A program made the position numbers and the translations under genes. From the NCBI RefSeq assembly GCF_003002815.1, contig NZ_PVTF01000008.1, positions 434,001 through 498,000 on the forward strand: a stretch of 64,000 bases of DNA, given 5' to 3'. Numbering within the stretch: the first letter of the stretch is position 1; every line of letters begins with the position of its first letter. This document shows, in pieces, positions 2 through 20,596 of the stretch. The stretch is from Umezawaea tangerina (GTDB taxonomy: Bacteria > Actinomycetota > Actinomycetes > Mycobacteriales > Pseudonocardiaceae). The notes under the pieces are model-generated. The model saw only the letters and a program-made list of their open reading frames with translations. It was not told the DNA's origin and did no database searches.

Positions 2-3000
2 AACATGGGTCATGCGGGCTCGCGAGAGGGCCTCCAGTTCGCGGTGGCGACCGGGCGTCCGCACGTCCGGGGTGACCTCGTGTGGCTCGTCGGCGATGAG
101 GCCGCCGGTGCCATCCACGGCAGCGAGATCTTCCGGCGCGCTGGTGGTTCCGACCGGATCCTGCTGCTGTACTGCGAGATCAACCAGCCCATTCCGGACG
201 GGAACGGAGTCACGCGGGCGCAGCAGGTCAAAGTCGCGTGGGTGGCTGATCACGGGCCGGTGGAGATGTTCGGCGCGACGACGGAAGCCTTTGCCGACAT
301 GGGTGGCTACCTCCTCGTCGAGGACGGCGGTGAGTTCACGGAGGTCCTGCTGCCGGGCGAGGAGCCGTCGGCACAGCCCGACTCGGAGCAGGGGATGGCG
401 GGCGCCGCCGGGCTGGAGGTCGCGGGATCGCCCGGTCGGCAGCAGACGGAGCGCATGGGTGCGAGTGCGCGCGGGACGGCTCCTGGGGTGCCCCCCGGCC
501 CCGCGGCGGGGGCGGCGGGTTCCGACGGACCGCCTCCGGCCGCATCCGCTGCTCCGGCCGAACCGGCCCCGCCCGTCGAACCGGCGGTGCAGGAGGAGAC
601 CGCGCCCGCCGGGCCAGTCGTGCAGCAGCAGACCACGCCCGCGGCCGAGTCCGCGGGTTCCGAGGTGCCGGTGCGGCCGAAGGGTGTGGCCCCGGAGCTT
701 CCCGCCGCCCAGGAGTTCGCGGAGGCGCTGGGCGCGAGCGAGCCCGGCGGTTCCGGGTCGGTGGCGAGCACGGCAGGCCATGAGCTGTCTTCGGTCGCGC
801 CGGCCGAACCGGCCGTGCCGGCGGCCCAGGCCGCGCCCGCGCCCGTGATCCCCGGCGTGCCGAGTTACCTGCGCGACAGCACGAGTCTGGGCATCGCCCA
901 GCAGAACGGACCGGTTCGCGCGGACTTCGGCGGCGCGTTGGACGAGCTGCTGCCGCCGGGCCCGCGCGTCGGCGTCGACGGCTTCGTCGAGGACCTGGTG
1001 AACGGCATCGGCAAGTTCCTCGGCAGGGGGCACACCGCCGACGTGACGATCGGTGGCAGGCCGTACGAGCTGCACGGCGTCGCGCGCTTCGGCTGGCAGA
1101 CCGCGGTCGAGGGCGCGCCATCGGACCTGAGCACCACGATGACCGGACCCGGTGGCACCGGCACGATCTCGGCGTCGGCGACGGTGAAGGACGGCAACAC
1201 CGGGCTGCTGGTGTTCGTCCTGACCGCCGCACCCGGCATCTTCGCGGTCGGCAGCGCGCAGCTGTCCACGGACGCGAGCAACGTCGTCACCTCGTCCGTG
1301 GACGCCAAGGCCGGGGAAAGCAACCAGATGGACCTGCTGATGCCCGCGAGGGAGTTCGCGGTTCCGGTGCGGGTCGAGCTGACTCTGCGGCACGCCGGGC
1401 AGCGCCCGGTCGGTGAACCGGTTGTCGTCGCCGGTAACACCGACCTGCTGGTGCCTGCCGGGCTGAGCGACACCGGAGGCACCGGTGCCGTCGCCACCGG
1501 GACGTCGTACGTCGAGTCGGTCGAGTTCGGGGGCGGCGCACCCGGTGTGTACCGCGGCAGGCCACTGCCGCCCGGACCGGACGGCAGCCACCGGTTGTTC
1601 GACAAGGTCGCCGCCGCGCTGCCGTCGTCACTGGTGAAACCGGGGCGGCCAGGACGCACGGCACTGCGGGAGTTCCTGACCGGCGACACCGTGCACGACC
1701 ACTACCACGACATCGCCGTGACCGCGGAGGACGCCGCCCGAGGTCGGGGCTGGGTGCGTTCGGAGTCGCTGTTCTCCGGCAAGCACCCGCTCCTGTCGTG
1801 GTCCGACACCCCCAGCGCGGTCGAGATGCGGCTGGTCGAACGGGTCGAGCCACAGGTGTTGCAGACCGTGCCGGACGCGACGTTCGTCGAGACCGGCACG
1901 GTCGGCACCGGCACCTCGGACACCGGCACCGCCGCCCGAGGGCTGACCGGCAAGATCATGATCGGCCCCGGCATGGACATGGGGGCGATCAGCCTGGTCG
2001 TGGGGCCGATCGCGGGCGTCGGGGCGGAGCGTGGCCGCGACCAGGACATCGGTCGTTCGGGTGAGATCGAGACCACGAAGACCTGGCGCGGGCCCGCTCA
2101 GCGGGTGCGGCGGCGGTTCGACCTCGAGGTGCGGGTACCGGGCAAACCCGCGATGAGGTTCGCCGACGACGTGACGGTGGTCGAGTGGGTGCGAGTGCTG
2201 GCCGACGCTGCCACGGCCGTACCCGCGGAAGCGCCGCCGGCGACCCCCGCGCAGGGCGGAGAACCGTCCACGGGCCAGGACACGGCCCCTCAGCGGAGTC
2301 TGTTCGGTCCCGAGGCGCTCGAGTCCGGCCGGGCGCTGGCCGGTGCGTCGCTGCGGGTCTCCGGTGTCGCCGAGCGGATGCTCGACCTCATCGAGAACTC
2401 CGTGCGCAAGGTACCCGGCCACCGGTCGTGGTACCTGAGCAGTGACCGCTTCCTCGACCAGTTCGACGACAAGTCCGCGGGCCGGGTACTGGGGCGCAAG
2501 CTCCAGGAGGGACTGCGCCGCCGGGACGCGCTGCGGGGGCTGCTGACCGACCGCGAGCTGTCGATGCTGGCCGACCGCGCGCTGTCCGCGGACGGGCTGC
2601 GACTCCCGATGGTGCCCCGGCACGGCTGGGGCCACGACTACCACGTGGCCTTCACCCTCCGGGCGACCATGTCGGACCTGCGCGACACCGGTGAGGTCAC
2701 GACACCCGCCGCCGTGGAGCAGGTCACCACGACCGACGTCGCGAGCAGCAGTCTCAAGGGCACCAGGACGACGACCGCGAGCGCCGGGTTCGCCAGCCGG
2801 GTCACCGGTGTGATCGCGGAGCGGGCCGCGATCCTGGTGTCGTCGTTGACGGGCGTGTTCACCTGGACCAAGACCGGCTTGACCGGTGTCACCGCGAAGC
2901 GTTCCCTGGTGTCGAAGATCGGTCAGGACAGCGGACTCACCGCCGAGCCGGTGCACCACTTCACCGCGAACCTGGCGTGGTCGCTGACCGGCACGACCTA

Positions 3001-6000
3001 CCGCCGCCACAACGCGATGACGCGCGGCCTCAGCTTCGGCAGTCGCGGTCTGCACGTGCCGCGGGTGGAGCCGGTGTCCATCGTGGACCCGGCGACGGAC
3101 GAGGCGGCTCCGGAAGCCGTCGTCACCGTCGCGGCGGATCTGCGAGTGCCCGCGGCCCACGTCTCGCGCACCCGTCCCGACCCCATCGCCGTGGATCGCA
3201 CGCCGGGACAGGAACTGCCCGGCCTGACCTTGCGACCGGGCCCCGACACCCCGGCGGCGGACGACGCGTTGCGCAGTGGACTGTCCCGCGACCTCGACGG
3301 CGTACGGGTGACCAGCTTCGGGGGACTGGAGTACGTGCGCGCGGCGGTGAAGAACGCGCTCACCCGTGCGTCCGGAGATCCCGTGTTCTCGTTCCCCGAG
3401 TCGGACAACAGCACCCTCATCGAGAACGTGCTGGCCCCCGACACCCTCAAAGCGGACCCGCGCCTGTTCAGCCGGACCATCGGTGTCCGCGGCCTGACCT
3501 GGCCACGGCGGCGCCTCAAGCAGCACGCCGCGGCCGAGGTGTCGTTCGTGCCGCGCGACGTCGAGGTGCTGCCCGGTGAGCGTTGGGAGCAGAGCACGGT
3601 CACCACGTCGACGGAGACGCAGACCGGCAACAGCACCCGGACGACGTGGAAGGCCGTCCCTGTCGTCGACACCACGGCCATCGCCTTCTACAGGGACGTC
3701 GCGCCCGGCGACAAGATCGTGATCCCTGGCGCGCTCGCCATCCTGGAGAACAACCCGATGACGACCGAGGGCGGTAGCGACGACGAGGTGGCCACCGAGG
3801 TGGCCACCGGCACCACCATCAGCAGGCAGCCCGAGCGGTTGCACCACGTGCGGTTCGGAGTGCGGGTCACGGTCGCCGCCGAGGTGCGGTCGCGGCGCTG
3901 GCGCCACGCGTGGGGCCTGTTCCGCGCAGGCTCACCGGGCGCGGCCAACGAGCGGTTCGACCTGCCGCGTGCGGTCACCGCCTGGGTCACCACCGCACAG
4001 CTCGCCGCGTTGCGCGCGGGGCAGGCGGCGCAAGACGCTCGTGCCGACCTGCACGACGAGGCACAGGCACCTGAGCGGGCCGCGCCCGTTCCCGCGTTCC
4101 TGCGTCCCCATGAACCGCTGTCGCTGGGCATCGGCGCGGTGGACGGCGTGGTGGACCTGCGGTCCGTGCTCCCCGCCCTGCGCCAGGACCTCGCCCGATC
4201 ACTCGGCCCCAAGCGCGCGGCGCGGCTCATCCCGTCCTCGCCGTTGAGTCGCGCCCACGACAACTACGCGGCGATCACGTCGTGGCTCGCCGACTCGCAG
4301 ACCTGGCTCGAGGACTCGTCGTCGACCGGCACACCGCGCCCCCTGAGGCTCGAGGACCGCGCGAGCGGACAGACCTACGAGTTCGTCGTCACCAACGAGC
4401 TGCTGGCCACACCCGAGTTCACCGGTCTCGTCCACGGCCGGCTCAAGCAGACGCGGACCACCACGTCGCTCGGCACGAGGGTGCGCACCTTCGCCAGGAC
4501 CGCGCTGCGGATGGAACCCGTCGCGGTGCCCGGTGTGCTGGTGGGCGGACCCGCGCCGAACGAGCAGGTCTCGCGCAGCAACCCCTTCGGAATGCTCGGA
4601 GGCGGGCTCACGGGCGACGTCGTGCTGGGGATGAAGAAGCGCGCGAAGAAGGAGACCCGCAAGACCGTGCGCGACCGCTCGGTGGAGACGTCCGGGCCGC
4701 TCGCGTCCTACCGCGCCCGCGTCGGGTTCACCGTGTCGGTGCACCGACACGGTCGGCAGATCGCGGAGGCCGGCACCGAACGCGCGCTGACGGTGCTGCA
4801 CCTGCCGGAGGACGCGGGGGCCCCAGGACGTTCCGGTGCAACGCCGGGCGCGGTGGTGCGTCCGCGGGAGCAGGCCACCCCGGACGCGCTCTCGCACTGG
4901 CGTGGTGAGCCCGCGTTCACCGGTGGCTGGGTGAGCCGCCTCCAGTTCGACGTCGACGACCTGGCCGACGGCGCCGCGACCGCCTACCGGACGGCGACGG
5001 GGAGCGAGGTCGTCCCGGCCGGGATCAGCCGCGCGCTGCGCGCCTCGCTCACCGGGCCGCGGGTCAAGGCGCTGCTCCCGGCCGCGGGCACCGGCGCTGT
5101 CCCGCTCGATCTGCCCGCCTGGTCCGGCCTGGCGATCGAGATGCACGTTCGCCGGTCCGGCTCACCGACGCTGACCGGAACAACGGCCCGCACCACCGTG
5201 ACGACCTCGGGCGAGGAGTCCGTGCAGCGAAGCGCGGAGGAGATGACGAAGGCCGAGTTCGGCCTGTTGGGCACGCCCATGGCGGGATTCGGTGGCACCC
5301 AGCCCCCTGGGAGCGAGAGAATCGGCGAACGCCGGGCCTTCGGTGGTGGAACCGGGTTCTTGCTGCCGCTGCTGTCGATGGGCGGAGTCGAGTCCGAAGG
5401 CGAGGTCGAGGCCTCCCACACCCACGCGACGCCCGGCGATAAGTCCACTTCGGACGGTCTGACCGGACTGTGGCTCAACGATGTCGAGGTCCGGTTCGTG
5501 GCCCGGCCGACCTCCAGGATCACCCGCAAGGACACCGCGGTGGTCGACGTGCTGATCAGCGACGCGGTGGTGGTCGCGGAGGACCGCGGGCAGGACACGA
5601 TCCCGGCTGAACTGGCCGACGCCGCTCGTTCACTCGCCGCAGCGGCGGACGAGGAAGCGTGGTGGGCCGCGTACGGCGACTACCTCGCGGCGTTGCCGGA
5701 TCTGACACCGGATGAGGAGGTCGTGCCGCCGGGGCCGGTGGTGGAGGCGGTGCCGCCGCAGCTGCCGAACCCGGAGGGGGAGGAGGAGGTACCGCTCGAA
5801 CCGGTGGTGGAGCAGGTGCCGCCGCAGTCGCCGGATCTGGTCGTGGTGGAGGAGGTTGCGCAGCCTGAACCGGTGGTGGAGGAGGTGCCGTCGCGGTTGC
5901 CGGGGCCGGCCGGGGACGAGGAGGTCGTGCCGCTCGAACCCGCGGAGGAGCAGGAGTCGCCGGTCGACGAGTCCAGCCGCGGCGCGGTGTTCCCGCCGCC

Positions 6001-9000
6001 CACCCTGCGGACCTCGGACGAACCGCTCTACGTCACCGACTCGCGCCCGCCGGACGTCGTCCGGGAGGAGGGGTTCCCCGCACCGGATCGTGGTCTTGAC
6101 CTCTACTCGCAGGTCACCTCGCCGGATGGGGACGGCTTCCCGACGATGAGGCGGGATCGTGCCGCGGCACGAGAACTCGGTGTGGGCGAACCCCTCTACG
6201 TCGTCAGCGCCCCGGGAGGCGTGGACGTGGCGGCGACGATGGCGCGCCACGGGGACCGGGGCGGTCCGTCGGGCGTGGTGTTCCCCGAAGGCGTGGCACC
6301 CGAGCACGTCACTCCGTGGGTGGAGCCCGACGAGCCGGACAGCGTGGTGCGGCTGACGGTGGCCGCCGATGCGGTGTCGTTGCCCCCGTCCGACCGGCTG
6401 TCGCTCGACGGTCTCGCCGACGTGGGCGAGGTGCACGTGCGCGCGGAAGGCGACCTCAGCGGGGACGAGCCGCGTGACGCGCTCGCGCTCGTCGTCGAAC
6501 GACTGCGGCCGGACCTCCGGATGCCGGAGATCCGGCAGGTGGAGAGCAGGCGGCAGGTGCGGGTCGAGGAGGCGACCGTGCCAGGGCCGCTGACGGGCGA
6601 GGCCGCCGACGTGGGGGAGATCCGGGAGGTGCAGGCCAGGCGGGAGGTGCGGATCGAGGTGTGGACCGCGCCCGAGCCGCTGACGGTCGAGGTCGTGTCC
6701 CCGGAGGACGAACCGCCCCCCTCGTTCCGGGTGGTGCGGCGCAACAACCTGGTCCACTTCCCGGCGGGCACGCGCTCCGATCTCGCGGACCGCCTGGAAC
6801 AGCTCGACGTCGCTCTCGACGTCTACGCCCAGTTCGACGCCGGGGGACGGGTGCAGTCGCCGTCGCGGCCTGTTCCGCACCATTCGCCGGACGCGCTCGT
6901 GCTCGTCGTCGACGACGTGACCGCCGTGCCGGACGTGCTGGGTTCCGCACTGGTGGAAGGGCTGTCCGCCGCCGCTCCGCTGGCGCTGGTCGTGCTGGTC
7001 GGGCAAGCGGCGGGCGCGGAACTCGCGGCACAGGTGGCGGCGCGGCTCCCGGCAGGACGCCCTCTGGTGTACGCCACGGGCCCGTCCGGGGTGAGTCCCG
7101 AGGACGGCACCCTCCTGGTGCACGCCGACGCGAGCCTCGAACTCTGGGAGCACGGTGCGGTCGAGCTGGCACCGGTTCCCGAGCCGTCCACCGGGCCTGG
7201 CGGGTTGCGCCACGACCGCCCAGACCTGCTCCTGGAAGCGGTGGGCCTCCAGCTCACCCCGGTGCAGGTGCTGGGGATCCGCGCGCAGGCCGCCCAACTG
7301 GTCGAGCACACGGCCGTGCGATCCGCCAAGGGGTTCGCCGCGCCCGTCGTGACGGTGAACGCGCCCACCGCGGCGGCCGCGGAGCACGTGGCGAAGGTGT
7401 GGCGCGGCGAGGTCGCGGACCACGCGAGCCGGGGTCGGGACACCTTGGTGTCGGCGGCCGACCTCGGTCTCGAGGCCGAGGTCGTGCTCGTGCCGGAGCT
7501 GCCCTCCGGTGTCGTCGAGCTGAGGATCGACTGGGAGATGGCAGGTCCCGGTTGTCAGCCGCTCGGCGGGTCCGGGCCGGACCACGTCGCCGCGCCCGTG
7601 GTGATCACCACCGAGTCGCTGCCCCGGCCGCACCCCGTGCTCGACGACCCGAGCTGGGCGCACAGCACCCTTCCCACCGCGCAGTGGATGGTCGACCCCG
7701 ATCCGGTGAGCGAGTCGGAGCGGGAAGCGGCCCGGCGCGGTGCGGTGCCGGTGGCGGTGTCCGGCGAGGACGTCGGACCGACGACGGCGGTGATGGGCCC
7801 GGTTCCCCGATTCGAGGCCTGGCGGCACCCGATCGTCTACGACCTCGCGAGGTACGAGGTCCGGCCGGGGAAGTGGGTGCAGGAGTACACGGCCCGGCTG
7901 CGGTTCCAGGCCGGTCCCGACGTCGACGTTCCCGCGCTGGTGGCCCGTGCCCAGGCCGGTGCCGACAGGATGTTCAACAACCCCGGCTACCGCCTGCCCA
8001 GCGGCGACAGCCTTCACGTCCGGGTGCTGCACGACCCCACTCCCGACGCGCACGCCACGGTGGACATCGGGCCCGCGGGCACCGCGACGGACATGCTGCA
8101 CTGGGCCGTCGACGCCGATGAGCTCGTGTTCGCGGAGGAACTGGGTCACATGCTCGGTCTGCACGACGAGTACCCCGTGCAAGCGGACGACGGTGAGCAC
8201 TGGGTGTTCCGCGGCCCCCGGTCGAACCGGGTCGTCACCGACAACGGCCTGTTCACCGCGCACGTCGGGCACTACCTGCGGGAGCTGCGGGAGAACGGTC
8301 ACACGGAGCTGCCGCCGCCGTCGGTGAAACCTCGGAACCTGTGGCTGCTGGAGACCAGGGCGCGAGCACTCGGAGCGGTGGTGGACGCACCGCTTCCGGT
8401 GGAACGGCACGAACCCGCCGCGGGCGTGCTGCCCGCCACCTCCGCGGGCCCCTCGGGTCAGCCCTGGTCGGAGCCGGGCTCGTCGTCCAGCGGGCCCGGC
8501 ACCGAACAAACCCGGCCCGGCGGTGTCGGGGAGCCGAGCGCGGTGGTGTCGCTCGGGTCGCAGATCGCGCTCGGCCGCAGACACCTCGACGTGCTCGGCG
8601 GACGGTTCGCGGAGGCCGCACTGCCACTGGCGCACCGACTGAAGCAGGTCTGGGAGAACGAGGCCCGGCTGCCCGCCGTCGACCGCCTGGCCATCGCACG
8701 GGAGGCGGTTGTCCGCCTGCGGCAGCTGCGGTTGGCGCAGATGGAGGAGACCTACGACGCCGCGGCCGCCATTGGCGCGAACGGCGGCAACCCGCTGACG
8801 TTCTACCCCGATGGCGTGCCCGGCGGGGTCAGCGGCAGGCCCGATGCCTGGTTCGGCTTCGAGGTCGAGCTCCGGCTGCCGGGGGAGTCCTTCGCCGATG
8901 TCAGCCAGGACCTCGGGCAGAAGCTGGTCGCCGCCGGACACCTCTCCGCCGGGAACGAGGTCGAAGCGGGCTCCTGGTCCATGGTGGAGGAGCGCAACCC

Positions 9001-10294
9001 GCGGTGGGGGGTGGAGCTCGTCTCGTCGGTGCTGTCGGGTAGCCCGACCACGTGGGCGAGCCTGGCAGGGGTGCTCGAGGTCGCCCGGAACCACCGCGGC
9101 CGCGCCGGTCAGCAGCCGGACGTGATCGACACGGGCGGTCACGTGAACGTCAGCTTCACCCAGCAGCTCGGACCCGCGGAGTACGCCAGGTTGGCGCAGT
9201 TGGCCAAGGCGAACGAGATGGTGCTCTACCGGCTGGGGAACTTCAACGGCGCAGGCGCGCCGCAACGCGACATGATGTGGGTGGGCCCTCTGCCGATACC
9301 GCCGCACCCCGACGGGGTTACCTCGATCGGCGACGTCAAGAGGCTGAACCGCAGCAAGTTCGAGCTGATCAACTTCCGGCACGTGGAAGGCAAGCAGACC
9401 GACCGCCTGGAGTTCCGGTTCTGGGCGGGCAGCCTGGATCCGGCGGTGTGGCAAGTGCGCGCGGAGCTGTCGGCGGCGATGGCGTCGGCGGCGAAGGACC
9501 GGTCGATCCACGCCCTGCTGGACAAGGCGATGGCCGCGCTCAAGCCGGTGGGACCGGCCACGCCCCCCACCGACCGGGACGCGGCACTGGCCGTGCTGCT
9601 GGACTTCCTCGAACTCCTCCAGCTCAGCCCCGAGGCGCACGAGCAGGCGGTGCGACTGTTCGCTTGGAACACCTGGTGGAACCACACCGGTGCCAACGAC
9701 ACGCGGTTGCGCACCCAGTCGCTCATCGGGAGGGGAATCCGGAACGTCTACTTCCCGGACAACGCGCGGAGCGTGCCCGAGGCGCTGATGGCGATCGAGT
9801 CCATGCCCCGGATCGCGGGCGCGGAGATCGTCGCGGCGACGCTGTCCCCCGACGCGGGCACCGTCGAGATGTGGCACGGTGCCCCGGTCCACGCCCGCGA
9901 CTTCGTAGTGGCCGTGGACAAGGTGAAGCCCGCCGCGTTCGTCCTGGGGGAGCTTCCTCCGGGCGTCGCGCCTCACGTGGTCTTCGCGATCGCAGGCGCC
10001 GCGCGCGGCCTCGACCTCGACCAGGTCGTCGAGGACCTGAGGGTGCCGGGCACCTTGGATCCGCTGCCCTCGTTGCCGTTCGCCCACCTGTTGGCCATCG
10101 CGACCCGAGACCATCCGGTGCTGGTCACCGCAGGAGCGGTGGGTGTGACCGAGGACGGGCGCGTCGTCTCGGACACCGAGTGGATCGAGCTGCAGCGGGA
10201 CCGGAAGCCGTTGCGCACCGGGGAGACCGACGCCGAACGGGCGCTGCACCGCGCCCGGGCCAACGCACCCCAGCTCCAGGGCGGAGGACGATGA
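2..10294 (+). CDS. Giant multidomain type VII secretion-linked protein (5' end outside window)
   Basis: The frame is open to the left edge and the first residues look like the middle of a domain, so the true start is probably upstream; residue numbers here count from the ATG at 5. Residues about 290-1900 are beta-rich blocks of roughly 400 residues that recur with similar boundaries. An acidic Pro/Val/Glu linker (about 1903-1983) follows. Residues about 2006-2110 resemble a pierisin/Scabin-type ADP-ribosyltransferase, but Val2010 replaces the NAD-site Arg. A metallopeptidase-like domain carries EELGH at 2711-2715, with Glu where HExxH needs its first His. Residues about 2945-3165 resemble the amidoligase (COOH-NH2 ligase) family: E2953/E2955, H3046 in GGHVNVS, and E3136/R3138 in LEFRF. 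Similar giants occur in actinomycete ESX loci. Its place just upstream of the WXG100 genes suggests a substrate or effector; this is inference. Confidence 0.8.
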   Translation, partial: NMGHAGSREGLQFAVATGRPHVRGDLVWLVGDEAAGAIHGSEIFRRAGGSDRILLLYCEINQPIPDGNGVTRAQQVKVAWVADHGPVEMFGATTEAFADMGGYLLVEDGGEFTEVLLPGEEPSAQPDSEQGMAGAAGLEVAGSPGRQQTERMGASARGTAPGVPPGPAAGAAGSDGPPPAASAAPAEPAPPVEPAVQEETAPAGPVVQQQTTPAAESAGSEVPVRPKGVAPELPAAQEFAEALGASEPGGSGSVASTAGHELSSVAPAEPAVPAAQAAPAPVIPGVPSYLRDSTSLGIAQQNGPVRADFGGALDELLPPGPRVGVDGFVEDLVNGIGKFLGRGHTADVTIGGRPYELHGVARFGWQTAVEGAPSDLSTTMTGPGGTGTISASATVKDGNTGLLVFVLTAAPGIFAVGSAQLSTDASNVVTSSVDAKAGESNQMDLLMPAREFAVPVRVELTLRHAGQRPVGEPVVVAGNTDLLVPAGLSDTGGTGAVATGTSYVESVEFGGGAPGVYRGRPLPPGPDGSHRLFDKVAAALPSSLVKPGRPGRTALREFLTGDTVHDHYHDIAVTAEDAARGRGWVRSESLFSGKHPLLSWSDTPSAVEMRLVERVEPQVLQTVPDATFVETGTVGTGTSDTGTAARGLTGKIMIGPGMDMGAISLVVGPIAGVGAERGRDQDIGRSGEIETTKTWRGPAQRVRRRFDLEVRVPGKPAMRFADDVTVVEWVRVLADAATAVPAEAPPATPAQGGEPSTGQDTAPQRSLFGPEALESGRALAGASLRVSGVAERMLDLIENSVRKVPGHRSWYLSSDRFLDQFDDKSAGRVLGRKLQEGLRRRDALRGLLTDRELSMLADRALSADGLRLPMVPRHGWGHDYHVAFTLRATMSDLRDTGEVTTPAAVEQVTTTDVASSSLKGTRTTTASAGFASRVTGVIAERAAILVSSLTGVFTWTKTGLTGVTAKRSLVSKIGQDSGLTAEPVHHFTANLAWSLTGTTYRRHNAMTRGLSFGSRGLHVPRVEPVSIVDPATDEAAPEAVVTVAADLRVPAAHVSRTRPDPIAVDRTPGQELPGLTLRPGPDTPAADDALRSGLSRDLDGVRVTSFGGLEYVRAAVKNALTRASGDPVFSFPESDNSTLIENVLAPDTLKADPRLFSRTIGVRGLTWPRRRLKQHAAAEVSFVPRDVEVLPGERWEQSTVTTSTETQTGNSTRTTWKAVPVVDTTAIAFYRDVAPGDKIVIPGALAILENNPMTTEGGSDDEVATEVATGTTISRQPERLHHVRFGVRVTVAAEVRSRRWRHAWGLFRAGSPGAANERFDLPRAVTAWVTTAQLAALRAGQAAQDARADLHDEAQAPERAAPVPAFLRPHEPLSLGIGAVDGVVDLRSVLPALRQDLARSLGPKRAARLIPSSPLSRAHDNYAAITSWLADSQTWLEDSSSTGTPRPLRLEDRASGQTYEFVVTNELLATPEFTGLVHGRLKQTRTTTSLGTRVRTFARTALRMEPVAVPGVLVGGPAPNEQVSRSNPFGMLGGGLTGDVVLGMKKRAKKETRKTVRDRSVETSGPLASYRARVGFTVSVHRHGRQIAEAGTERALTVLHLPEDAGAPGRSGATPGAVVRPREQATPDALSHWRGEPAFTGGWVSRLQFDVDDLADGAATAYRTATGSEVVPAGISRALRASLTGPRVKALLPAAGTGAVPLDLPAWSGLAIEMHVRRSGSPTLTGTTARTTVTTSGEESVQRSAEEMTKAEFGLLGTPMAGFGGTQPPGSERIGERRAFGGGTGFLLPLLSMGGVESEGEVEASHTHATPGDKSTSDGLTGLWLNDVEVRFVARPTSRITRKDTAVVDVLISDAVVVAEDRGQDTIPAELADAARSLAAAADEEAWWAAYGDYLAALPDLTPDEEVVPPGPVVEAVPPQLPNPEGEEEVPLEPVVEQVPPQSPDLVVVEEVAQPEPVVEEVPSRLPGPAGDEEVVPLEPAEEQESPVDESSRGAVFPPPTLRTSDEPLYVTDSRPPDVVREEGFPAPDRGLDLYSQVTSPDGDGFPTMRRDRAAARELGVGEPLYVVSAPGGVDVAATMARHGDRGGPSGVVFPEGVAPEHVTPWVEPDEPDSVVRLTVAADAVSLPPSDRLSLDGLADVGEVHVRAEGDLSGDEPRDALALVVERLRPDLRMPEIRQVESRRQVRVEEATVPGPLTGEAADVGEIREVQARREVRIEVWTAPEPLTVEVVSPEDEPPPSFRVVRRNNLVHFPAGTRSDLADRLEQLDVALDVYAQFDAGGRVQSPSRPVPHHSPDALVLVVDDVTAVPDVLGSALVEGLSAAAPLALVVLVGQAAGAELAAQVAARLPAGRPLVYATGPSGVSPEDGTLLVHADASLELWEHGAVELAPVPEPSTGPGGLRHDRPDLLLEAVGLQLTPVQVLGIRAQAAQLVEHTAVRSAKGFAAPVVTVNAPTAAAAEHVAKVWRGEVADHASRGRDTLVSAADLGLEAEVVLVPELPSGVVELRIDWEMAGPGCQPLGGSGPDHVAAPVVITTESLPRPHPVLDDPSWAHSTLPTAQWMVDPDPVSESEREAARRGAVPVAVSGEDVGPTTAVMGPVPRFEAWRHPIVYDLARYEVRPGKWVQEYTARLRFQAGPDVDVPALVARAQAGADRMFNNPGYRLPSGDSLHVRVLHDPTPDAHATVDIGPAGTATDMLHWAVDADELVFAEELGHMLGLHDEYPVQADDGEHWVFRGPRSNRVVTDNGLFTAHVGHYLRELRENGHTELPPPSVKPRNLWLLETRARALGAVVDAPLPVERHEPAAGVLPATSAGPSGQPWSEPGSSSSGPGTEQTRPGGVGEPSAVVSLGSQIALGRRHLDVLGGRFAEAALPLAHRLKQVWENEARLPAVDRLAIAREAVVRLRQLRLAQMEETYDAAAAIGANGGNPLTFYPDGVPGGVSGRPDAWFGFEVELRLPGESFADVSQDLGQKLVAAGHLSAGNEVEAGSWSMVEERNPRWGVELVSSVLSGSPTTWASLAGVLEVARNHRGRAGQQPDVIDTGGHVNVSFTQQLGPAEYARLAQLAKANEMVLYRLGNFNGAGAPQRDMMWVGPLPIPPHPDGVTSIGDVKRLNRSKFELINFRHVEGKQTDRLEFRFWAGSLDPAVWQVRAELSAAMASAAKDRSIHALLDKAMAALKPVGPATPPTDRDAALAVLLDFLELLQLSPEAHEQAVRLFAWNTWWNHTGANDTRLRTQSLIGRGIRNVYFPDNARSVPEALMAIESMPRIAGAEIVAATLSPDAGTVEMWHGAPVHARDFVVAVDKVKPAAFVLGELPPGVAPHVVFAIAGAARGLDLDQVVEDLRVPGTLDPLPSLPFAHLLAIATRDHPVLVTAGAVGVTEDGRVVSDTEWIELQRDRKPLRTGETDAERALHRARANAPQLQGGGR
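5711..5955 (+). repeat. Imperfect tandem repeat encoding a Pro/Glu/Val linker
   Basis: Four degenerate units of about 66-69 bp, starting near 5711, 5780, 5846 and 5915, encode the pattern EEVxPxEPVVExVPPxLPxP inside the giant protein. They form an extended acidic linker between the beta-rich blocks and the ADP-ribosyltransferase-like region. The last unit is shortened. Confidence 0.6.
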
Positions 10295-10397: not shown

Positions 10398-11102
10398 ATG
10401 ACGGGAACCGCTGAGGAGACGCGGGGGGATGGACCGTCGGAGAACTGGTTCCTGCTGATCGATCCGGCCTGGACCCCCGCCGGTGAGAACGACGTGCCGC
10501 CGCTGGAATCGGTGGTCGGACTGTGGCCGGTGGAGGAGGACGGGAAGCCCGGGAAGTTCCGACCCAACCCGGAGTACCTGCCGAGCGACGACAACTCGCC
10601 GTCGGACCCGTTGGACGCCGTGCTGCGGCTGGTGGTGCAGGGGAGGGCCGAGGCCGAGCACATCCAGCTGCTGCTGCGGGACTCCCTGTTCGACCTGGCC
10701 CTGAACGGCGATGGACGACCGTTGATCACCAAGTCGCCGGACGACGTGCCGTGCGTCGTGGTGGCGACCGGTGAGGCGCACCGGCGGCGGATCGGCTCAC
10801 CCGACTGGCAGCGGATCGAGATCCACGAACTGGTGGTGGCACTGGCGGACGGCGTGGACGTGCTGGTCAACCCCGGCGGGCCCGCGTCGGTACGGCTGAC
10901 CGGGGATTTCCTGCGCGACACGCTGATGCTGGACGACGATCAGGTGGCCGAGCTGTACGCGGGCCACGCGGACGCCTCCGGGCCGCGGCTCGTGCCATGG
11001 CCGTCCGCGGCCGAGCCGGAGAGCGGGGATGACGAGGCCGCGGACCGATCGTCCACGACGGGCCGCATCCGTCGAGAGCACGGCTTCGCCGGTCGAGGGT
11101 GA
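10398..11102 (+). CDS. Type VII secretion system-associated protein, SseB-like
   Basis: The 234-residue protein starts at ATG 10398, six bases after AGGAGG (10386-10391); an in-frame ATG at 10314 lacks such a site. It has no signal peptide or membrane segment and looks cytoplasmic. The segment VLVNPGGPASVRLTGDFL (residues about 155-172) resembles the NPGGP stretch of SseB-type and 'type VII secretion system-associated' proteins of actinomycetes. It lies between the giant gene and the first WXG100 gene, where it could serve as a chaperone, adaptor or immunity partner of the giant protein. That role is inferred from position only. The C-terminal 40 residues are charged and probably disordered. 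Confidence 0.6.
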   Translation: MTGTAEETRGDGPSENWFLLIDPAWTPAGENDVPPLESVVGLWPVEEDGKPGKFRPNPEYLPSDDNSPSDPLDAVLRLVVQGRAEAEHIQLLLRDSLFDLALNGDGRPLITKSPDDVPCVVVATGEAHRRRIGSPDWQRIEIHELVVALADGVDVLVNPGGPASVRLTGDFLRDTLMLDDDQVAELYAGHADASGPRLVPWPSAAEPESGDDEAADRSSTTGRIRREHGFAGRG

Positions 11103-11255: not shown

Positions 11256-11576
11256 ATGGCCCCAGTGTCGACTACCACCCCCGGAATGCTGGCCGCGGCG
11301 GGCCACCTCGCCGACACCCAGAGCGTGGCCAAGAAGGGCGTGGCGACGATCACCGACTCGCTCACCGCCCTGAAGTCGACCTGGATCGGTGACGCGTCCA
11401 CGGCGTTCGACTCGGCGATGTGCGCGTGGATGGACGACTGCAAGTTCATCGTCGGGAAGCTCGGCGAGATGATCGACGTCATGAACGGCAACCAGAAGGT
11501 CATCGCGGCCGGCGAGCAGGCCAACACCCAGCAGGCTTCCCGCATCCCGACCGGCCCTGGCCTCGCGGGTATCTAG
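11256..11576 (+). CDS. WXG100-family secreted protein (ESAT-6/CFP-10-like)
   Basis: The 106-residue protein is chosen from ATG 11256 behind AAGGGAGA (11242-11249). It has the WXG100 length and layout: an N-terminal helix, a WIG turn at residues 43-45 (STWIGDAST), and a second amphipathic helix. Such proteins form helical-hairpin dimers that are exported by EccC-type machines. No clear C-terminal YxxxD/E export signal is visible, so its partner probably carries it; the next gene encodes one. Two Cys residues (in the stretch AMCAWMDDCKF) just after the turn are unusual for the family. The gene is 47 bp before the second WXG100 gene, as in esxB-esxA pairs. Confidence 0.85.
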   Translation: MAPVSTTTPGMLAAAGHLADTQSVAKKGVATITDSLTALKSTWIGDASTAFDSAMCAWMDDCKFIVGKLGEMIDVMNGNQKVIAAGEQANTQQASRIPTGPGLAGI

Positions 11577-11623
11577 AACCGCCGCCACGACCTCGTCCAC
11601 ATCGAGCTGAAAGGGACACCGCA

Positions 11624-11926
11624 GTGGCTACCTACACCTTCGACCGCGGCATGGCGGACTCGGTGCGCGACCAGATGGCCTCCGTCACCATGGCGTTGCG
11701 GAGCGAACTGGAACGCATGGACCAGCAGGTCCAATCAACCCTGCAGGACTGGCAGGACGGCGCCAAGGACCAGTACCTGGTCGCGAAGTCCCAGTGGGAC
11801 GAGGTGGCGGCGCGGATGCCGAACAGCCTCCACTCCGCCGAGGTCGCGCTGAGCGAGATCACCGACGGCTACCTCAAGATCGAGCACACGGGCATGAACG
11901 CCTGGGGCGGATACGACGTCAAGTGA
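11624..11926 (+). CDS. WXG100-family secreted protein, second member of the pair
   Basis: A GTG at 11624 after GAAAGGG gives exactly 100 residues, the canonical WXG100 size. The turn reads WQDG (W43, G46) rather than strict WxG, followed by AKDQY. A YxxxE export-type signal is present at Y83-E87 (YLKIE) after the second helix. With the upstream 106-residue protein it probably makes a heterodimer whose C-terminal signal is read by EccC. The single-residue insertion in the WXG turn is a small departure from the family. Confidence 0.85.
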   Translation: MATYTFDRGMADSVRDQMASVTMALRSELERMDQQVQSTLQDWQDGAKDQYLVAKSQWDEVAARMPNSLHSAEVALSEITDGYLKIEHTGMNAWGGYDVK

Positions 11927-12609: not shown

Positions 12610-15165
12610 ATGGCTGATGACAATCCGGGCTTCACGATCCAGAACGGCACCTTCTTCGCGACCGGTGACGGATCGGGCCTGAAGAAGGAGGACTACGACA
12701 ACTGGGATTGGCACCGGATCGAGGCCGCGATCACCGGCTTCTCGTCCGTACCCCCGGACATGAAGGTCGACTTCTCCAGCGGGCCCTCAAATCCGTCGAC
12801 CCTGTGGAACGCCGCGTTGGCCTTCCGCTCGGTGCAGGAGATCCTGTTCCAGATCGGTAGCACGACCCGCGAACAGGCGAAGACCCTCGCCGGCGAGGAC
12901 GGCTACTGGAAGGGCGAGGCCGCCACGGCGTTCCTGCAGCTCATGACGCAGTTCGGCAACGCGTTCACCAGCCACGCGCGGCAGCTCGCAGGAGGTCCGG
13001 CCCACATCTCGCCCGTGCCGGAGTCGTTGTGGGCCGCGGGTTCGTACCTCGACTGGGCGCGGCGGACGATCTACGAGATCGATGCCCACTACGGCAACGA
13101 AGCCATAAAAGTCGCCACGATGTTCGGCTCGGCGGTAGTGGACGAACTGATCATGGACAACAAGATGGTCAAGATCAGCAGTTACCCCTTCATCGTCGCG
13201 ATGATGGAGGCGGACATGCGGAAGGTCCTGAAGATCCTGGCGGCCGAGTACGAGAAGTCGAAGTTCGACAACACCCTCGTGTCCGTGCCGACGCCGGGCT
13301 CCGGCACGGGCCCGCCTCCGCCGAACAAGCCGTTCGTGACCAGCGAGCGGCCTCCTGCCCTCGGGCCTCCTTTCACCGGGATCGAGGCTCCGATGGAGGT
13401 GCAGCCCCCGCCGGGGCTGGGGATTCCACCGGAGTTGGGGTCGGCGATGCACGTCCCCGCCGGCATGGCCGAGGGGCCGGGTCTGTCTCCGTTCGACCAG
13501 GCCGCGCTGACCGGTCCGGGAAGCGGTGCGGGCCGGCCACCGGGCTTCGAACCGACGGGTTTCCCCGCCATGGTGCCGCCTTCGTTCGACGGTCCTCCTG
13601 CGTCGGAAGGGGTGGGCGCGCCACCGTCGCTCCAGCCTTTCGCGCCGTCGTCGCTGCCCCCGTCCGGCAGTGGCCTGAACGGGTCTGGGCCCGGCAACCG
13701 GGTGAACCTCCCGTCGGGTCAGAAGCCGGGATCGGGCGCGGGAGCCACGTCGCCGAACCTGCCGGAGCTCGAGCCGTTCGAGCCGTCCGAGCCGCCGGAC
13801 CTGGCGGACTGGGCGGCGGACAAGGCCCTGGACAGCCTCGACTCGGCCGACCAGCGTGGTGCTGGCGTGCCAGGTGGTGCGCTTGGCGGGATGCCGATGA
13901 TGCCGCCGATGTCGCCGCCCGCGGGGCCCGGCGCGGGTGGGTCCGAGCGGTCGGACGCATCCGGTCTGCTGGGTGGTGAGGTCGCTTCGTGGGAGGGTGC
14001 CGACCTTGCCGGGATCGGTGATCCGGAGGCGCTCGCCGATCTGGCTGAGGGCAAGGAGAAGTGGGAGGCGCCGTCGCTTGGTGCCGGTGTTCCCGGTGGT
14101 ATGCCGATGGTGCCGCCGATGTCGCCGCCCGCGGGATCTGGTGCGGGTGGGTCCGAGCGGTCTGATGCGTCCGGTCTGCTGGGTGGTGAGGTCGCTTCGT
14201 GGGAGGGTGCCGACCTTGCCGGGATCGGTGATCCGGTCGCGGACGAGGCCCTCCCGGAGGGCGAGGCCCAAACCTGGGCCTCGGTCATGTCGTCGGGTGT
14301 GCCCGTGGACGGTCTGCTCCTGGAAGTGCCGAACGAGTCCGTCGAGCCGGTGGTGAACGGTTTCGGCGAACCCGATGACCGAGTCCACGGCCGGCCTGTC
14401 GCCCCCGGTGTTCCCGACGGGGACACCGCGGCGTGGGAGGGCGCGTCCGCACCGGGACAACCCCTCGGGACAGCCACGCGGTCCGCGTCCCTCCTGCCCG
14501 GTGCACCGGTGCTACCGGCCCCGGCCGCACCGGTGGTCTCGAACGTGCCCGCGCGCGCCGACTCGTCCGCGTTGATCGCGGACGATCGCGCCTCCTCGGC
14601 CGTGCCGTCCGATCCCGGCGCTTCCCGGCAGGAGGATGAGCGGGGTGGTCCGGGGAGCGGCGTGCCGCTCCCGCCCGAGTCGCTGGAAGAGCGGATCGCC
14701 GTTGTGCGGCCCCCTGACGCCGACGAGGACTTCGGCGCGTGGGACGTCCCCGCGAGCACCGGTCTCCTGTGGGCCGTGCCGGCTCCCGGCCGGACAGCGG
14801 AGGACGACGATGAGGCGGAACCGCACACGCCCGACCACACGGTGCGCGGGACAACGCCTTGGGAGTCCGTGACGAACCACGCTGCCGCGCGGTCGGCGGT
14901 GGACGTGAAAGCGCTCGGGAGTCGGAGTTTCAGGGACGGCAGCGAGTTCCTCCCGCGCCCCGACAGGCCAGAGGACTTGCGCAGGTGCGGAAGTGCCGAG
15001 CACGACGCCGAGGCCCAGCCTGCCGAGGAGGAAGTGGCGCGTGCTGCCGAGGAGGGGGAAACGGCGGAAGAGGAGCAGACGCCCACATCCGCCGACCTGC
15101 TTCGCCAGGACGGCGGCGCGTGGGCGGAGGCCTCGCGTCCGAGGACTACCGGGGTGATCGAATGA
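12610..15165 (+). CDS. PPE/WXG-like secreted protein with long Pro-rich tail
   Basis: The 851-residue protein starts at ATG 12610 behind AGGAAAG; longer in-frame starts run back through the previous gene. Residues 1-230 are helical with a WKG turn at 100-102 (GYWKGEAATAF), as in PPE or long WXG-type substrates. From about residue 235 it is Pro/Gly/Ser-rich and probably disordered. Two near-identical copies of a 45-residue segment with MPPMSPPAG and GEVASWEGADLAGIGDP sit 70 residues apart. It ends in an acidic tail. The stop overlaps the eccC start (ATGA at 15162-15165), indicating translational coupling. It is probably exported with the WXG proteins; the tail may span or bind the cell wall, but that is speculation. 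Confidence 0.75.
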   Translation: MADDNPGFTIQNGTFFATGDGSGLKKEDYDNWDWHRIEAAITGFSSVPPDMKVDFSSGPSNPSTLWNAALAFRSVQEILFQIGSTTREQAKTLAGEDGYWKGEAATAFLQLMTQFGNAFTSHARQLAGGPAHISPVPESLWAAGSYLDWARRTIYEIDAHYGNEAIKVATMFGSAVVDELIMDNKMVKISSYPFIVAMMEADMRKVLKILAAEYEKSKFDNTLVSVPTPGSGTGPPPPNKPFVTSERPPALGPPFTGIEAPMEVQPPPGLGIPPELGSAMHVPAGMAEGPGLSPFDQAALTGPGSGAGRPPGFEPTGFPAMVPPSFDGPPASEGVGAPPSLQPFAPSSLPPSGSGLNGSGPGNRVNLPSGQKPGSGAGATSPNLPELEPFEPSEPPDLADWAADKALDSLDSADQRGAGVPGGALGGMPMMPPMSPPAGPGAGGSERSDASGLLGGEVASWEGADLAGIGDPEALADLAEGKEKWEAPSLGAGVPGGMPMVPPMSPPAGSGAGGSERSDASGLLGGEVASWEGADLAGIGDPVADEALPEGEAQTWASVMSSGVPVDGLLLEVPNESVEPVVNGFGEPDDRVHGRPVAPGVPDGDTAAWEGASAPGQPLGTATRSASLLPGAPVLPAPAAPVVSNVPARADSSALIADDRASSAVPSDPGASRQEDERGGPGSGVPLPPESLEERIAVVRPPDADEDFGAWDVPASTGLLWAVPAPGRTAEDDDEAEPHTPDHTVRGTTPWESVTNHAAARSAVDVKALGSRSFRDGSEFLPRPDRPEDLRRCGSAEHDAEAQPAEEEVARAAEEGETAEEEQTPTSADLLRQDGGAWAEASRPRTTGVIE
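13891..14236 (+). repeat. Direct repeat, two 136-bp copies at 210-bp spacing
   Basis: Copy 1 (13891-14026) and copy 2 (14101-14236) have equal length, and the final 66 bp are identical (13961-14026 and 14171-14236). The spacing is a multiple of three, so the frame of the PPE-like protein is kept. It looks like a recent in-frame duplication or gene conversion of a 70-residue unit. Confidence 0.9.
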
Positions 15166-18100
15166 GCACCGTCACCGTCAAGCGCGGGCCTCGGCCTGCC
15201 GGCCCCGAGATGCCGGAAGGCCAGGAAGAACTCCAGGAACCGCCTTTGGTGCCTGAGCCGGCGGCGCGGGACTACAGCTCGGTGCTGATGTTCGTGCCGA
15301 TGGCGCTCGGTCCGATCGCGATGGTCCTGATGTTCTCCAGCGTCGGATCGGGCGGCGGCTCACCGCTGATCATCATCATGTCCGGTGCGATGGCGATGGG
15401 CATGGTCGCGATGGCGACCAACCAGTTGTTCCGCGGTGCCGGTGAGCGCAGGAAGAAGCTGGACGCCGAGCGTCGTGACTACCTGCGCTACATCTCCCAG
15501 TTGCGCCGCAAGGCGAGGGAGAGGAGCGACGAGCAGCGGGGCGCGGTGGCGTGGAACAACCCCGACCCCTCCTGGCTCTGGTCGTTGGCCGCCGGACCCC
15601 GCCTGTGGGAGCGGCGGGGCAGCCACGACGATTTCGCGAGGGTGAGGATCGGCCTCGGCGTGCAGCACGCGGCGATGGAGTTCACGCCCCCGTCCACCAA
15701 ACCGATCGAGGACCTCGAACCGCTGTGCGCGATCTCGCTCCGGCGCTTCAGCGAGACCTATCGGACCGTCACCGGCATCCCCATCGCCGTCGGCCTGCGC
15801 AGTTTCACCAGCGTCGAGTTCGCGGGCGACCCCGTCGCGGCGGTCGGGCTGGTGAGGGCCATGGTCGGGCAGCTGGTCACCTTCCACGCGCCGGACGAAC
15901 TCCGGATCGCGGTGCTCACCGCGCCGCAGAACCAGGCGGACTGGGACTGGGTGAAGTGGCTGCCGCACAACGCGCACCCCACCGCTCGTGACGCCGCGGG
16001 CCCGTTGAGGATGCTGACCTGCGACCACGACGAGCTGGTCGAACTGCTCGGCGCCGAGGTCACCGATCGCGGCGACCACGACAAGGGCGTGCTGCCGGGA
16101 GTGGCGGAACCGTTCGTCGTGGTCGTCGTGCACCTCGCCACCATTCCGGAACACTCGCCGCTGTTCGGGCCCGGTCTGCGCAACGTGTCACTCCTCGACG
16201 CCACCGGTGCGTTGCCGGGTGGCGCGAAGGTGCTCCGGTTGACTTGCCGGGACGGCCAGGTCTCCTATCCGGCGGGCGACGACGAGATCGGCACCGCGAC
16301 GGCGGACTCGCTCGGTCTACCGCAGGCGGACACCCTCGCGCGAGTGCTCGCCCCCAAGCGCACCAACGGGACCATCGACGTGGTCGACCGCCCGTTCGAC
16401 AACGACTTCGAGCTGACCGCGTTGCTGGCCATCCGGGACGTGCACACCTTCGACGTCAACGCCCAGTGGCGCCACAAGGCCGCGCAACGGACCCGCCTCC
16501 AGGTGCCGATCGGGGTCACGGAGGAGGGCGAGGTCGTGGAGATCGACCTCAAGGAGTCCGCCCAGGGCGGCATGGGTCCGCACGGAATGCTGATCGGTGC
16601 CACCGGGTCCGGCAAGAGCGAACTGCTGCGCACACTGGTGTGCGCTCTCGCCGCCACGCACTCGTCGGAGATCCTCAACCTCGTCCTGGTGGACTTCAAG
16701 GGCGGTGCGACCTTCCTCAACATGGAGAAGCTGCCCCACACCTCGGCGGTGATCACCAACCTGGCCGACGAGCTGCCGCTGGTCGACCGGATGCAGGACT
16801 CGATCAACGGTGAGATGACCCGGCGCCAGGAAGCCCTCCGGCAAAGCGGGCACTCGTCCCTGTTCGAGTACGAGAAGGCCCGCCTGGCAGGTGGGCAGCT
16901 GCCGCCCCTGCCCACCCTGCTGGTCATCGTCGACGAGTTCTCCGAGCTGTTGAGCGCCAAGCCCGAGTTCATGGACCTGTTCGTCTCCATCGGCAGGCTG
17001 GGGCGCAGCCTCGGCGTGCACCTGCTGCTCGCCTCCCAGCGCCTGGACGAAGGGCGCATCCACCGGGTCGAAGGTCACCTGTCGTACCGGGTCGCACTGC
17101 GGACGTTCTCCTCCATGGAGTCCCGCAGCGTCATCGGCGTCGCCGACGCCTACGAGCTGCCGTCCGGTCCCGGCAACGGCTTCCTCAAGATCGACACCAG
17201 CACCTTGGTCCGGTTCAAGGGTGCTTACGTCTCCGGACCGTGCCGGACCGCCGCACCCGACAGCGGAGCTGTCAGCGAGGAGGACCTCGCGGCCGGGGAG
17301 ATCGTCCCGTTCTACACCGGGCCGAACCCGACCGCGTTCCAGCTCCTCTCCACCGCCGAGCAGGACGAGGAGTCCGCCGAGGCGGAAGACGAGGACCAGC
17401 CGGCCGCCGAGGACGCGCCGAGCCTCGCGGAGGTGTTGATCGGGCGCCTGGCGGGAGCCGGTCCCGCGGCTCGCCAGGTGTGGCTCCCGCCGTTGGCCGA
17501 GTCCCCGAGCCTGGACTCCCTGCTGCCCAGCGTGGTGCCCGATCCCCGACTCGGCATGACCGTCGACGACCCGATGGCCCGCGGCAGGCTGCGCGTGCCC
17601 GTCGGCTTGGTCGACATGCCCTACGAGCAGGTGCGCGAGCTGCTGGTCGCCGACCTGTCCGGTGCGGACGGTCACGTCGGTGTGGTGGGCGCGCCGATGA
17701 GCGGCAAGTCGGCCTTGCTGCGCACGGTGATCCTCGGCCTCGCCCTGACACACACGCCGGCGGAGGTCCAGTTCTACGGGCTGGACTTCGGTGGTGGCGG
17801 CATCACGTCCGTCAGCGGCCTGCCGCACTTCGGGTCCGTCGCGACGCGCATGGAGCGCGACCGCGTGGTCCGCACGCTCGAAGAAGTGGTGCAGGTCATG
17901 GAGATGCGCGAGGCCGTGTTCGCCGCGGAGGGCCTGGAGTCGATGGCCGACTACCGCGCCGCCCGGCGGGACGGCCGGATCGAGGACCAGCACGGCGAGG
18001 TCTTCCTGATCATCGACGGCTGGTTCACGCTGCGCCAGGACTACGGCGACCTGGAGACCAAGCTGACCGAGATCGCCGCACGTGGTCTGTCCTTCGGCAT

Positions 18101-19202: not shown

Positions 19203-20596
19203 CCACGATTCCCGCATCGTGCCGCATCACGGTGCTCGGCCCGAGCGGACGGGCTGATCTCGCTGTGCCCGTCTCCACCAACGTCTCCGCGCTGCTGCCG
19301 ACACTCGTCCGGCACGTCGTGCGGGACCAGGACCGCGATGGCGACGGGCACGAGTCCTGGGCGTTGCAACGGCTCGGTGACGCGCCGTTCGACCCCGAAG
19401 GCACTCCGGAGACCCTCGACTGGCTCGACGGTGAGCAGCTCTACCTCACCCGCGCGGAGAACCCGTTGCCGGAGTTGGACTTCGACGACGTGGCGGAGGG
19501 AATGGCCGCGGCGGTCAACCGGCAGGGCAACAGGTGGAACGGCGAGGTGAACCGCGCACTGTTCCTCGGCCTGACTGGTGTCGCGTTCGCCGCGATCGGG
19601 GTGTCGCTCTTCGCGAACACGAGCGCGGCGTTCGCCGCGACGACCGCCGGGGTGCTCGCGACCCTGCTCTGCCTGGCCGCCGTGCTCGTCGCGCGCACGA
19701 TCGCGGACCGAGGGCTCGCCGCGGTCCTCGGTGTCGCGGGATGCCTGTTCGCCTGCCTGGCAGGGTTGATCGGCCAGGCAGGCCTGCCTGGCGCTCTGTC
19801 GTTGCCGCCGTGGGCCGTCTTCACCGGCGGGCTCGCCATGGGATTGGCGGCGGCCGTGTTGTTGCTGATCCAGCGGCTCTTCGCGCGAGACCTCCCGATC
19901 GTGTCGTTCGGGTGCGCCGCGGTGGCCGGACTCGGTGCGCTGCTCGCCATGTTCCTGCACCTGAACATGGACTTCACGGCGTTGCAGACGGCGCCACTGG
20001 TCATGGTGTTCTTCTTCGTGCTGTTGCTGTTCGCGCCGAAGCTGGCGACTCGCGCCGCTCGTCTGCGCGGTCCGCAGCTGCCTCGCAACGCGGAGGAGAT
20101 GAAGATCGACATCGAGTCGGTGCCCGCCGCCAGGGTGATCGAGCAGACCGGTCACGCCGACCGCTACCTGGGCGTGCTGACCATCGGATCCTCCGCGGTG
20201 TTCGGGTGCGGGTTCTGGTACCTCCTGCGTGACCCGCACTGGCTGGACTTCACCCTCGCCCTCCTGCTGGCGGCCGCGATCCTGCTGCGTTCACGGGAGT
20301 TCCTCGACATCGCCCAGCGCACCGCGTTGGTGCTCGCCGGGACGTGGGGTCTGGTGCTGCTCTCACTCGGACTGCTCGCCGGGATGAACGACGTCGAGCG
20401 GGTCGTCGGTACCGCCGCGCTCGTGCTGGGCGCGTTTCTGCTCGTGGCGGCGGCGTTGCGGCCCGCGCACCGCCGTGTGCTGCCGATCTGGCCGCACCTG
20501 AGCGACGTGCTGGAGAACGCGTGCTGCCTCGCGTTGGTGCCCTTCCTGTTGCAGGCCTTGGGAGTTTTCGCCTGGGCTCGCGGTCTGGCGGGGTGA
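19199..20596 (+). CDS. eccD: ESX secretion channel protein EccD
   Basis: The 465-residue integral membrane protein begins at a GTG that overlaps the eccC stop (GTGA, 19199-19202). Residues about 8-90 form the ubiquitin-like cytosolic domain typical of EccD. They are followed by a charged linker and about eleven hydrophobic helices from residue 122 to the end. EccD lines the inner-membrane part of the type VII channel. The order eccC-eccD-eccB and the size match actinomycete ESX systems. Confidence 0.93.
   Translation: MTTIPASCRITVLGPSGRADLAVPVSTNVSALLPTLVRHVVRDQDRDGDGHESWALQRLGDAPFDPEGTPETLDWLDGEQLYLTRAENPLPELDFDDVAEGMAAAVNRQGNRWNGEVNRALFLGLTGVAFAAIGVSLFANTSAAFAATTAGVLATLLCLAAVLVARTIADRGLAAVLGVAGCLFACLAGLIGQAGLPGALSLPPWAVFTGGLAMGLAAAVLLLIQRLFARDLPIVSFGCAAVAGLGALLAMFLHLNMDFTALQTAPLVMVFFFVLLLFAPKLATRAARLRGPQLPRNAEEMKIDIESVPAARVIEQTGHADRYLGVLTIGSSAVFGCGFWYLLRDPHWLDFTLALLLAAAILLRSREFLDIAQRTALVLAGTWGLVLLSLGLLAGMNDVERVVGTAALVLGAFLLVAAALRPAHRRVLPIWPHLSDVLENACCLALVPFLLQALGVFAWARGLAG

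Follow-up and report, generated by a model that had tools for sequence, protein, structure and literature searches.

The window analysed here, 64,000 nucleotides of Umezawaea tangerina DNA (G000:C8:434001-498000 of a 10.68-Mb actinomycete genome), opens inside a gene for a giant protein of 5,827 amino acids (aa) that stands beside the genes of a type VII secretion system (T7SS) of the ESX kind. Our analysis suggests that this giant is probably a polymorphic-toxin-type effector of the adjacent ESX system. Three traits of an ESX effector are present: a WXG-type N-terminus, linkage to ESX genes and, in relatives, variable toxin modules mounted on a common frame. An original prediction, made from the window alone, had described a giant protein of repeated beta-rich blocks with ART-like, protease-like and amidoligase-like domains, either a multi-warhead effector or a structural exoprotein. 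This account is confirmed in part; the window edge led it into some misreading, and it missed features that are outside the window or cryptic, namely the WXG100_2 domain, a live-looking ADP-ribosyltransferase (ART) and two cysteine-protease-like modules, the second of which ends inside the window.

The giant gene and its ESX linkage

The open reading frame (ORF) at 2..10294 runs for 3,430 codons without a stop, and its GC content at the three codon positions is 0.75/0.53/0.90 (0.72/0.52/0.85 in the upstream part of the gene); it is therefore real coding sequence and not a chance frame, as predicted. The predicted extent, however, is incomplete, since the window edge cuts the gene. The frame begins at a GTG in the upstream locus (L002:6811), which is the second codon after an in-frame stop and is preceded by a G-rich stretch. 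The full protein, stop-free throughout, is made up of 2,397 upstream residues and the 3,430 of the window, and contains only three cysteines. Residue numbers below ('abs.') are those of the full protein, and a window position equals 2 + 3 x (abs. - 2398).

A WXG100-like N-terminus, which the original prediction had raised as a possibility, is indeed present upstream: WXG100_2 (PF25547) is matched at residues 9-129 with an E-value of 7.4e-11 and 42.7 bits against a cut-off of 27. Downstream, the giant gene is followed in order by an NF033532 gene, a WXG100 pair, EccC, EccD, EccB and an EccA-type AAA gene (Table 1). The giant gene was predicted to head a type VII operon, and this holds, except that two genes come first on the 5' side: one of YbaB/EbfC type (E 2.9e-9), the other WXG-like by eye and with no Pfam match.

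Modules of the giant protein

The live-looking ART, ART1, lies upstream of the window. It aligns with Scabin (E 4.2e-15) and pierisin-1 (E 2.1e-8) and retains the Scabin catalytic positions Arg, Ser-Thr-Thr and Glu (R741, S779, E828); its relatives in locus L033 and genome G110 retain Arg, Ser and ExE. ART1 therefore resembles Scabin/pierisin-type ARTs in sequence and catalytic positions, but it has ExE rather than QxE at the third motif and is embedded in a giant protein. The ART1 tail (residues 841-869 of the full protein) carries a short NPxYxP-type motif common to the adjoining NF033532 protein (NF033532 match E 5.3e-5). The ART-like domain predicted within the window, ART2, is borne out by a profile match (Table 1), although this copy lacks the catalytic residues.

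Two copies of a module that we designate LC are found at abs. 938-1498 and 2029-2543 (634 and 594 bits). Each copy has one His and one Cys at conserved places (abs. 1298/1354 and 2401/2455), and in an alignment of LC copies each of these residues is kept in 34 of 35 rows. LC is a triplicated fold with the His and Cys in the last unit only. The fold of the cysteine protease domain (CPD) was found in the predicted structure of a relative's copy, 44% identical, which was compared with known structures by VIA-align, and on this model both LC modules seem to have the fold of the proteases with which large bacterial toxins cut themselves. We class LC as CPD-like, and not as C80, because a sequence match to the C80 profile is absent. 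As a known sequence family LC was not recovered, Pfam giving stray single-row matches only and the Protein Data Bank (PDB) nothing meaningful; the best stray Pfam match is that of one LC copy (among loci L029-L043) to WXG100_2 (E 0.005 and 0.0017). In L037 Pfam gives a weak match to C80 (E 0.017) at residues 2179-2226, which lie outside the LC modules. The label 'lonely Cys' could be matched to no open-licence paper and is not used for LC.

The predicted protease-like domain corresponds to a zincin-type module common to relatives. This assignment is made on the motif in the relatives, where HExxH is present in 8 of 9 rows; as L032 and L036 are the same DNA, this makes 7 of 8 distinct copies. 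The module has no PDB match and only stray single-row matches in Pfam, including Astacin at E 0.29. The amidoligase-like domain finds support through its relatives: with E-values allowed up to 5, PF12224 (Amidoligase_2) is matched by 5 of 8 module rows, the best at 9.9e-5, but not by the copy in the window. In the one relative with known bits the score, 20.7, does not reach the family cut-off of 22. The window copy keeps FGFEVE-, GGHxN- and EFRxW-type motifs (abs. 5348, 5442 and 5533), which we take to be the catalytic motifs of amidoligases. Searches with this module gave stray matches only in PHROGs (best E 0.097) and none in the PDB; no canonical PF12224 proteins for comparison were found at E 1e-15 in 100 genomes, a result that says nothing about absence.

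The repeated beta-rich blocks of the original prediction proved to be one module with diverged internal repeats, its profile being about 1,515-1,527 positions long. Within it, abs. 3181-3672 aligns with 3500-3962 (hhalign E 1.1e-7). Homologous modules are found in the named loci L033, L035, L039 and L040, and the module is nearly whole in one stretch in 11 loci (L035, L047-L055, L057). Its structure model is poor (pLDDT 52.9), and it contains four low-confidence, Ser/Thr-rich inserts of constant length and diverged sequence. Hydrophobic alternation, a sign of membrane barrels, is not clearly above that of shuffled sequence. One relative's copy (L056, G135:C1:1640852-1642921) is interrupted by a single stop codon.

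Table 1. Modules of the giant protein and genes of the adjacent ESX cluster
Feature	Window position	Residues (abs.)	Strand	Basis or remark
ART1, Scabin-like ART (PF22596)	upstream of window	739-861	+	E 2.4e-21
Second LC, C-terminal part	2..355		+	putative catalytic His abs. 2401, Cys abs. 2455; N-terminal part upstream, abs. ~1990-2397
Pro/Ala/Gly-rich linker	356..862		+	composition
Beta-rich module, diverged internal repeats	863..5590	2685-4260	+	homologues in relatives, hhalign
Acidic proline-rich linker	5591..5980		+	composition
ART2, second Scabin-like ART, pseudo-enzyme	6026..6352	4406-4514	+	PF22596 E 1.2e-6, 28.9 bits vs 27
'Mid' segment	6428..7180		+	follows beta module in L039 too, 40% identity
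Zincin-like (HExxHxxGxxDE-type) module	7181..8410; motif 8135-8149	4791-5200	+	motif in relatives
Amidoligase-like C-terminal module	8534..10291	5242-5827	+	alignment with relatives; relatives' conserved residues kept
NF033532 T7SS-associated protein, adaptor/chaperone candidate	10398..11102		+	189 bits vs cut-off 85
WXG100 protein	11256..11576		+	PF06013 E 4e-8
WXG100 protein, putative start	11609..11926		+	PF06013 E 1e-6
EccC-type FtsK/SpoIIIE ATPase	15162..19202		+	PF01580 E 1.2e-86
EccD	19199..20596		+	PF19053 E 6.1e-75
EccB	20601..21971		+	PF05108 E 3.9e-83
EccA-type protein (beta-helix + AAA), putative start	24660..27973		+	PF13229, PF00004, PF17866

Relatives and known giant toxins

The LC profile identifies 15 named loci in Amycolatopsis, Crossiella, Lentzea, Actinosynnema and one strain labelled Nocardia. 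The named loci (L) and the numbered genomes (G) overlap in strain (for example, L041/G107 and L040/G137) and are not independent sets. Among 120 genomes of the family, own genome included, LC is present in at least 8 (in G035 by 97 residues only) and the beta module in at least 14, both counts being lower bounds with at most 10 (LC) and 9 (beta) candidates scored per genome. Neither module was matched in the two same-genus genomes examined (G001 and G002). In the wider class, LC was seen in 1 of 394 genomes (3 candidates scored per genome listed) and the beta module in 1 of 148 (up to 7 scored), in both cases the own genome, and these results are too weak for a claim of absence.

Open frames with LC matches range from 486 to 16,768 residues, and those with beta matches from 1,583 (with a stop inside) to 17,426. 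Both the named loci and the family genomes show the same modules shuffled into other orders. In G110, for instance, the order, with LC fragments omitted, is WXG100_2, beta, zincin, ART, three LC, amidoligase, LC, part of an amidoligase and LC, while in G124 there are five copies of the amidoligase, of which one is split in two, together with zincin-like pieces between two beta modules. In L030:9902-19735, residues 918-1051 give weak TcdA/TcdB and GT88 glycosyltransferase matches (E about 4e-4, below the cut-off) and are perhaps another type of warhead.

Zhang et al. (2012; PMC3482391) described giant toxins of actinobacteria that contain ART, caspase-like and metallopeptidase domains, several to a protein. 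In the sections of that paper considered here, multiple autoproteolytic releases are proposed for such giants, SACTE_5178 (13,652 aa) is among them, and arrays of caspase-like repeats include some without catalytic residues. Compared by description, the protein studied here looks like one of this kind, being a giant actinobacterial chain of ART and protease-type domains, and its domain combination, called unexplained in the original prediction, is not so in principle. The differences are that the word amidoligase has no occurrence in PMC3482391 and that a beta module and a WXG100_2 start are undescribed in the sections considered. New here are the WXG100_2 start with ESX linkage, the CPD-like fold and triplication of LC, the beta and amidoligase modules, and the mixture of modules that look live with others that look dead. 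In our searches of the open-licence PubMed Central (PMC) literature, we recognised no later papers on these giants and found no experimental study of actinomycete giant toxins; the sections of PMC12419801 considered here do not treat giants. Amidoligase-like modules also occur in open frames of 27,324 residues (G016:C1 ~4897162, L005) and 23,843 residues (G020:C4 ~198963, L004), well above the 13,652 aa of SACTE_5178.

The giant differs from MARTX and large clostridial toxins in its T7SS context and WXG100_2 domain, which stand in place of RTX or clostridial delivery parts. LC, in turn, differs from the CPD of those toxins in its triplicated fold, with His and Cys in the last unit alone, and in having neither a C80 sequence match nor a sign of an inositol phosphate site. 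CpnT is a T7SS toxin with the N-terminal layout seen here. The giant shares with CpnT/TNT-type toxins an N-terminal WXG100-like domain, adjoining WXG100 genes and C-terminal catalytic parts, but differs in its size, its several warheads and its autoprocessing-like modules, and no TNT domain is found among its Pfam matches at E up to 0.1.

Nine named loci hold the stop of the giant gene. An NF033532 homologue lies 3' of it in eight of them, within 140 bases in six, and in the ninth, L041, the sequence ends 211 bases past the stop. The copies nearest the stop are 56-71% identical while the warheads vary, and NF033532 is present in 85 of the 120 family genomes, far more than LC or the beta module. 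Because it is conserved while warheads differ, and is so widespread, a role as warhead-specific immunity protein is unlikely, and we infer an adaptor or chaperone. Across the family genomes NF033532 is found in short ORFs (about 200-300 aa) as well as in open frames 1,200-2,000 residues long, and it may be fused to other proteins in some of them. Between EccB and the EccA-type gene of the window is an 895-residue ORF (21972-24659) with no Pfam match at E 0.001, and regulator-like genes with helix-turn-helix and NB-ARC domains flank the ESX cluster (L002:300-2549 on the minus strand, window 29864-32155 on the plus strand).

Effector, exoprotein or relic

As an ESX effector the giant could work as follows. 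The WXG100_2 domain, aided by the WXG-like partners and the NF033532 protein, would engage EccC for export, as the domain and the gene order suggest. By analogy with MARTX and TcdA/B, the two CPD-like His-Cys modules would then cleave the giant at sites between its modules, either outside a target cell or within it. Freed ART1, whose identity as a domain is clear, would ADP-ribosylate a target, and the C-terminal amidoligase-like module could ligate amines or amino acids to target carboxylates. The pseudo-ART and the metal-deficient zincin would be non-catalytic parts that bind, act as spacers or are decaying, and the 1,500-residue beta module may perhaps serve adhesion or translocation.

Several observations weigh against this reading. 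In ART2 the catalytic R-S-E residues are not conserved in an alignment to a solved ART, and the window zincin copy departs from HExxH in that its first metal ligand is not a histidine, a loss that probably makes it inactive. Two of the six enzyme-type modules thus look dead. The multi-warhead effector of the original prediction is still the best reading, but these are two of the three enzyme-like domains of the window, and ART2 and the zincin, being catalytically dead-looking, are probably not warheads here. The protease call for LC is one of fold, taken from a relative's copy: C80 (PF11713) is matched neither by any of 35 LC rows at E up to 1 nor, at E up to 10, by any of 17 rows that cover the last third, and PDB sequence searches gave no match for the whole module and two chance-level matches (E 1.1 and 1.4) for its last third. 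The CPD-like third shows no conserved basic cluster in favour of activation by inositol hexakisphosphate, and none of its positions is invariantly basic, the best, in the far C-terminal helix, being basic in 74% of rows. In the nine loci that hold the stop, 81-594 residues separate it from the last full LC, and in four of them (L030, L039, L040, L043) fewer than 120 residues follow, so that LC is there C-terminal and might itself be a toxin; in the giant studied here, unlike those relatives, both LC modules lie N-terminal to the beta module, with the last three enzyme-type modules further on. Of the neighbouring ORFs that were scanned, none could be recognised as an immunity gene specific to a warhead; this hints, but does no more than hint, at a purpose other than the killing of kin.

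The loss of catalytic residues in two enzyme modules would also suit a structural or adhesive exoprotein, in which the work would fall to the beta module and the linkers, the enzyme-like modules would for the most part be retired domains with a binding role, and LC would trim or cross-link the protein at the cell surface. The largest single module is indeed beta-rich and of no recognised fold, and it occurs in more family genomes than LC (14 against 8 of 120). We nevertheless hold an exoprotein to be unlikely, as catalytic residues are kept in ART1 and both LC copies, the amidoligase residues are kept as well, and relatives exchange enzyme modules in the manner of toxins.

A bolder proposal, to which we give only a small chance, is a type VII counterpart of MARTX. 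The beta module, which in this proposal bears several long, length-conserved Ser/Thr/Gly-rich hairpins, would be a single-chain device for membrane translocation, and the enzyme modules would be delivered through it and then cut free by the CPD-like modules. Actinomycetes would thereby have a multi-effector weapon that delivers itself, perhaps one aimed at eukaryotic predators.

It is similarly doubtful that the gene is a decaying effector, a former multi-warhead toxin, now partly pseudo-enzymatic, that persists through drift or as a reservoir for recombination. Such decay would fit the dead-looking ART2 and zincin and the two same-genus genomes without an LC or beta match, but not 5,827 stop-free codons with normal codon-position GC throughout. 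Published giants, moreover, carry pseudo-enzyme modules too, in the form of caspase repeats without catalytic residues (PMC3482391, sections considered). The neighbouring ESX genes, for their part, have open frames with matches to their families. A protein of the cell interior or of cell-wall biogenesis that has no part in conflict, and whose amidoligase modifies the cell's own envelope, is very improbable given the WXG100_2 N-terminus, the ESX operon and the patchy presence among family genomes, even though amidoligases act on peptides or the envelope in other settings.

Giant multi-domain actinomycete toxins have been described from sequence since at least 2012. Read as an ESX effector, the locus analysed here offers a complete member of 5.8 thousand amino acids (5.8 kaa), with a clear export domain, a recurrent cysteine-protease-like module, one ART that looks live and a defined module of 1,500 residues with no recognised fold. 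Should LC indeed cleave the giant, the logic of MARTX and clostridial toxins, in which one chain is exported and many parts are released, would extend to T7SS effectors.
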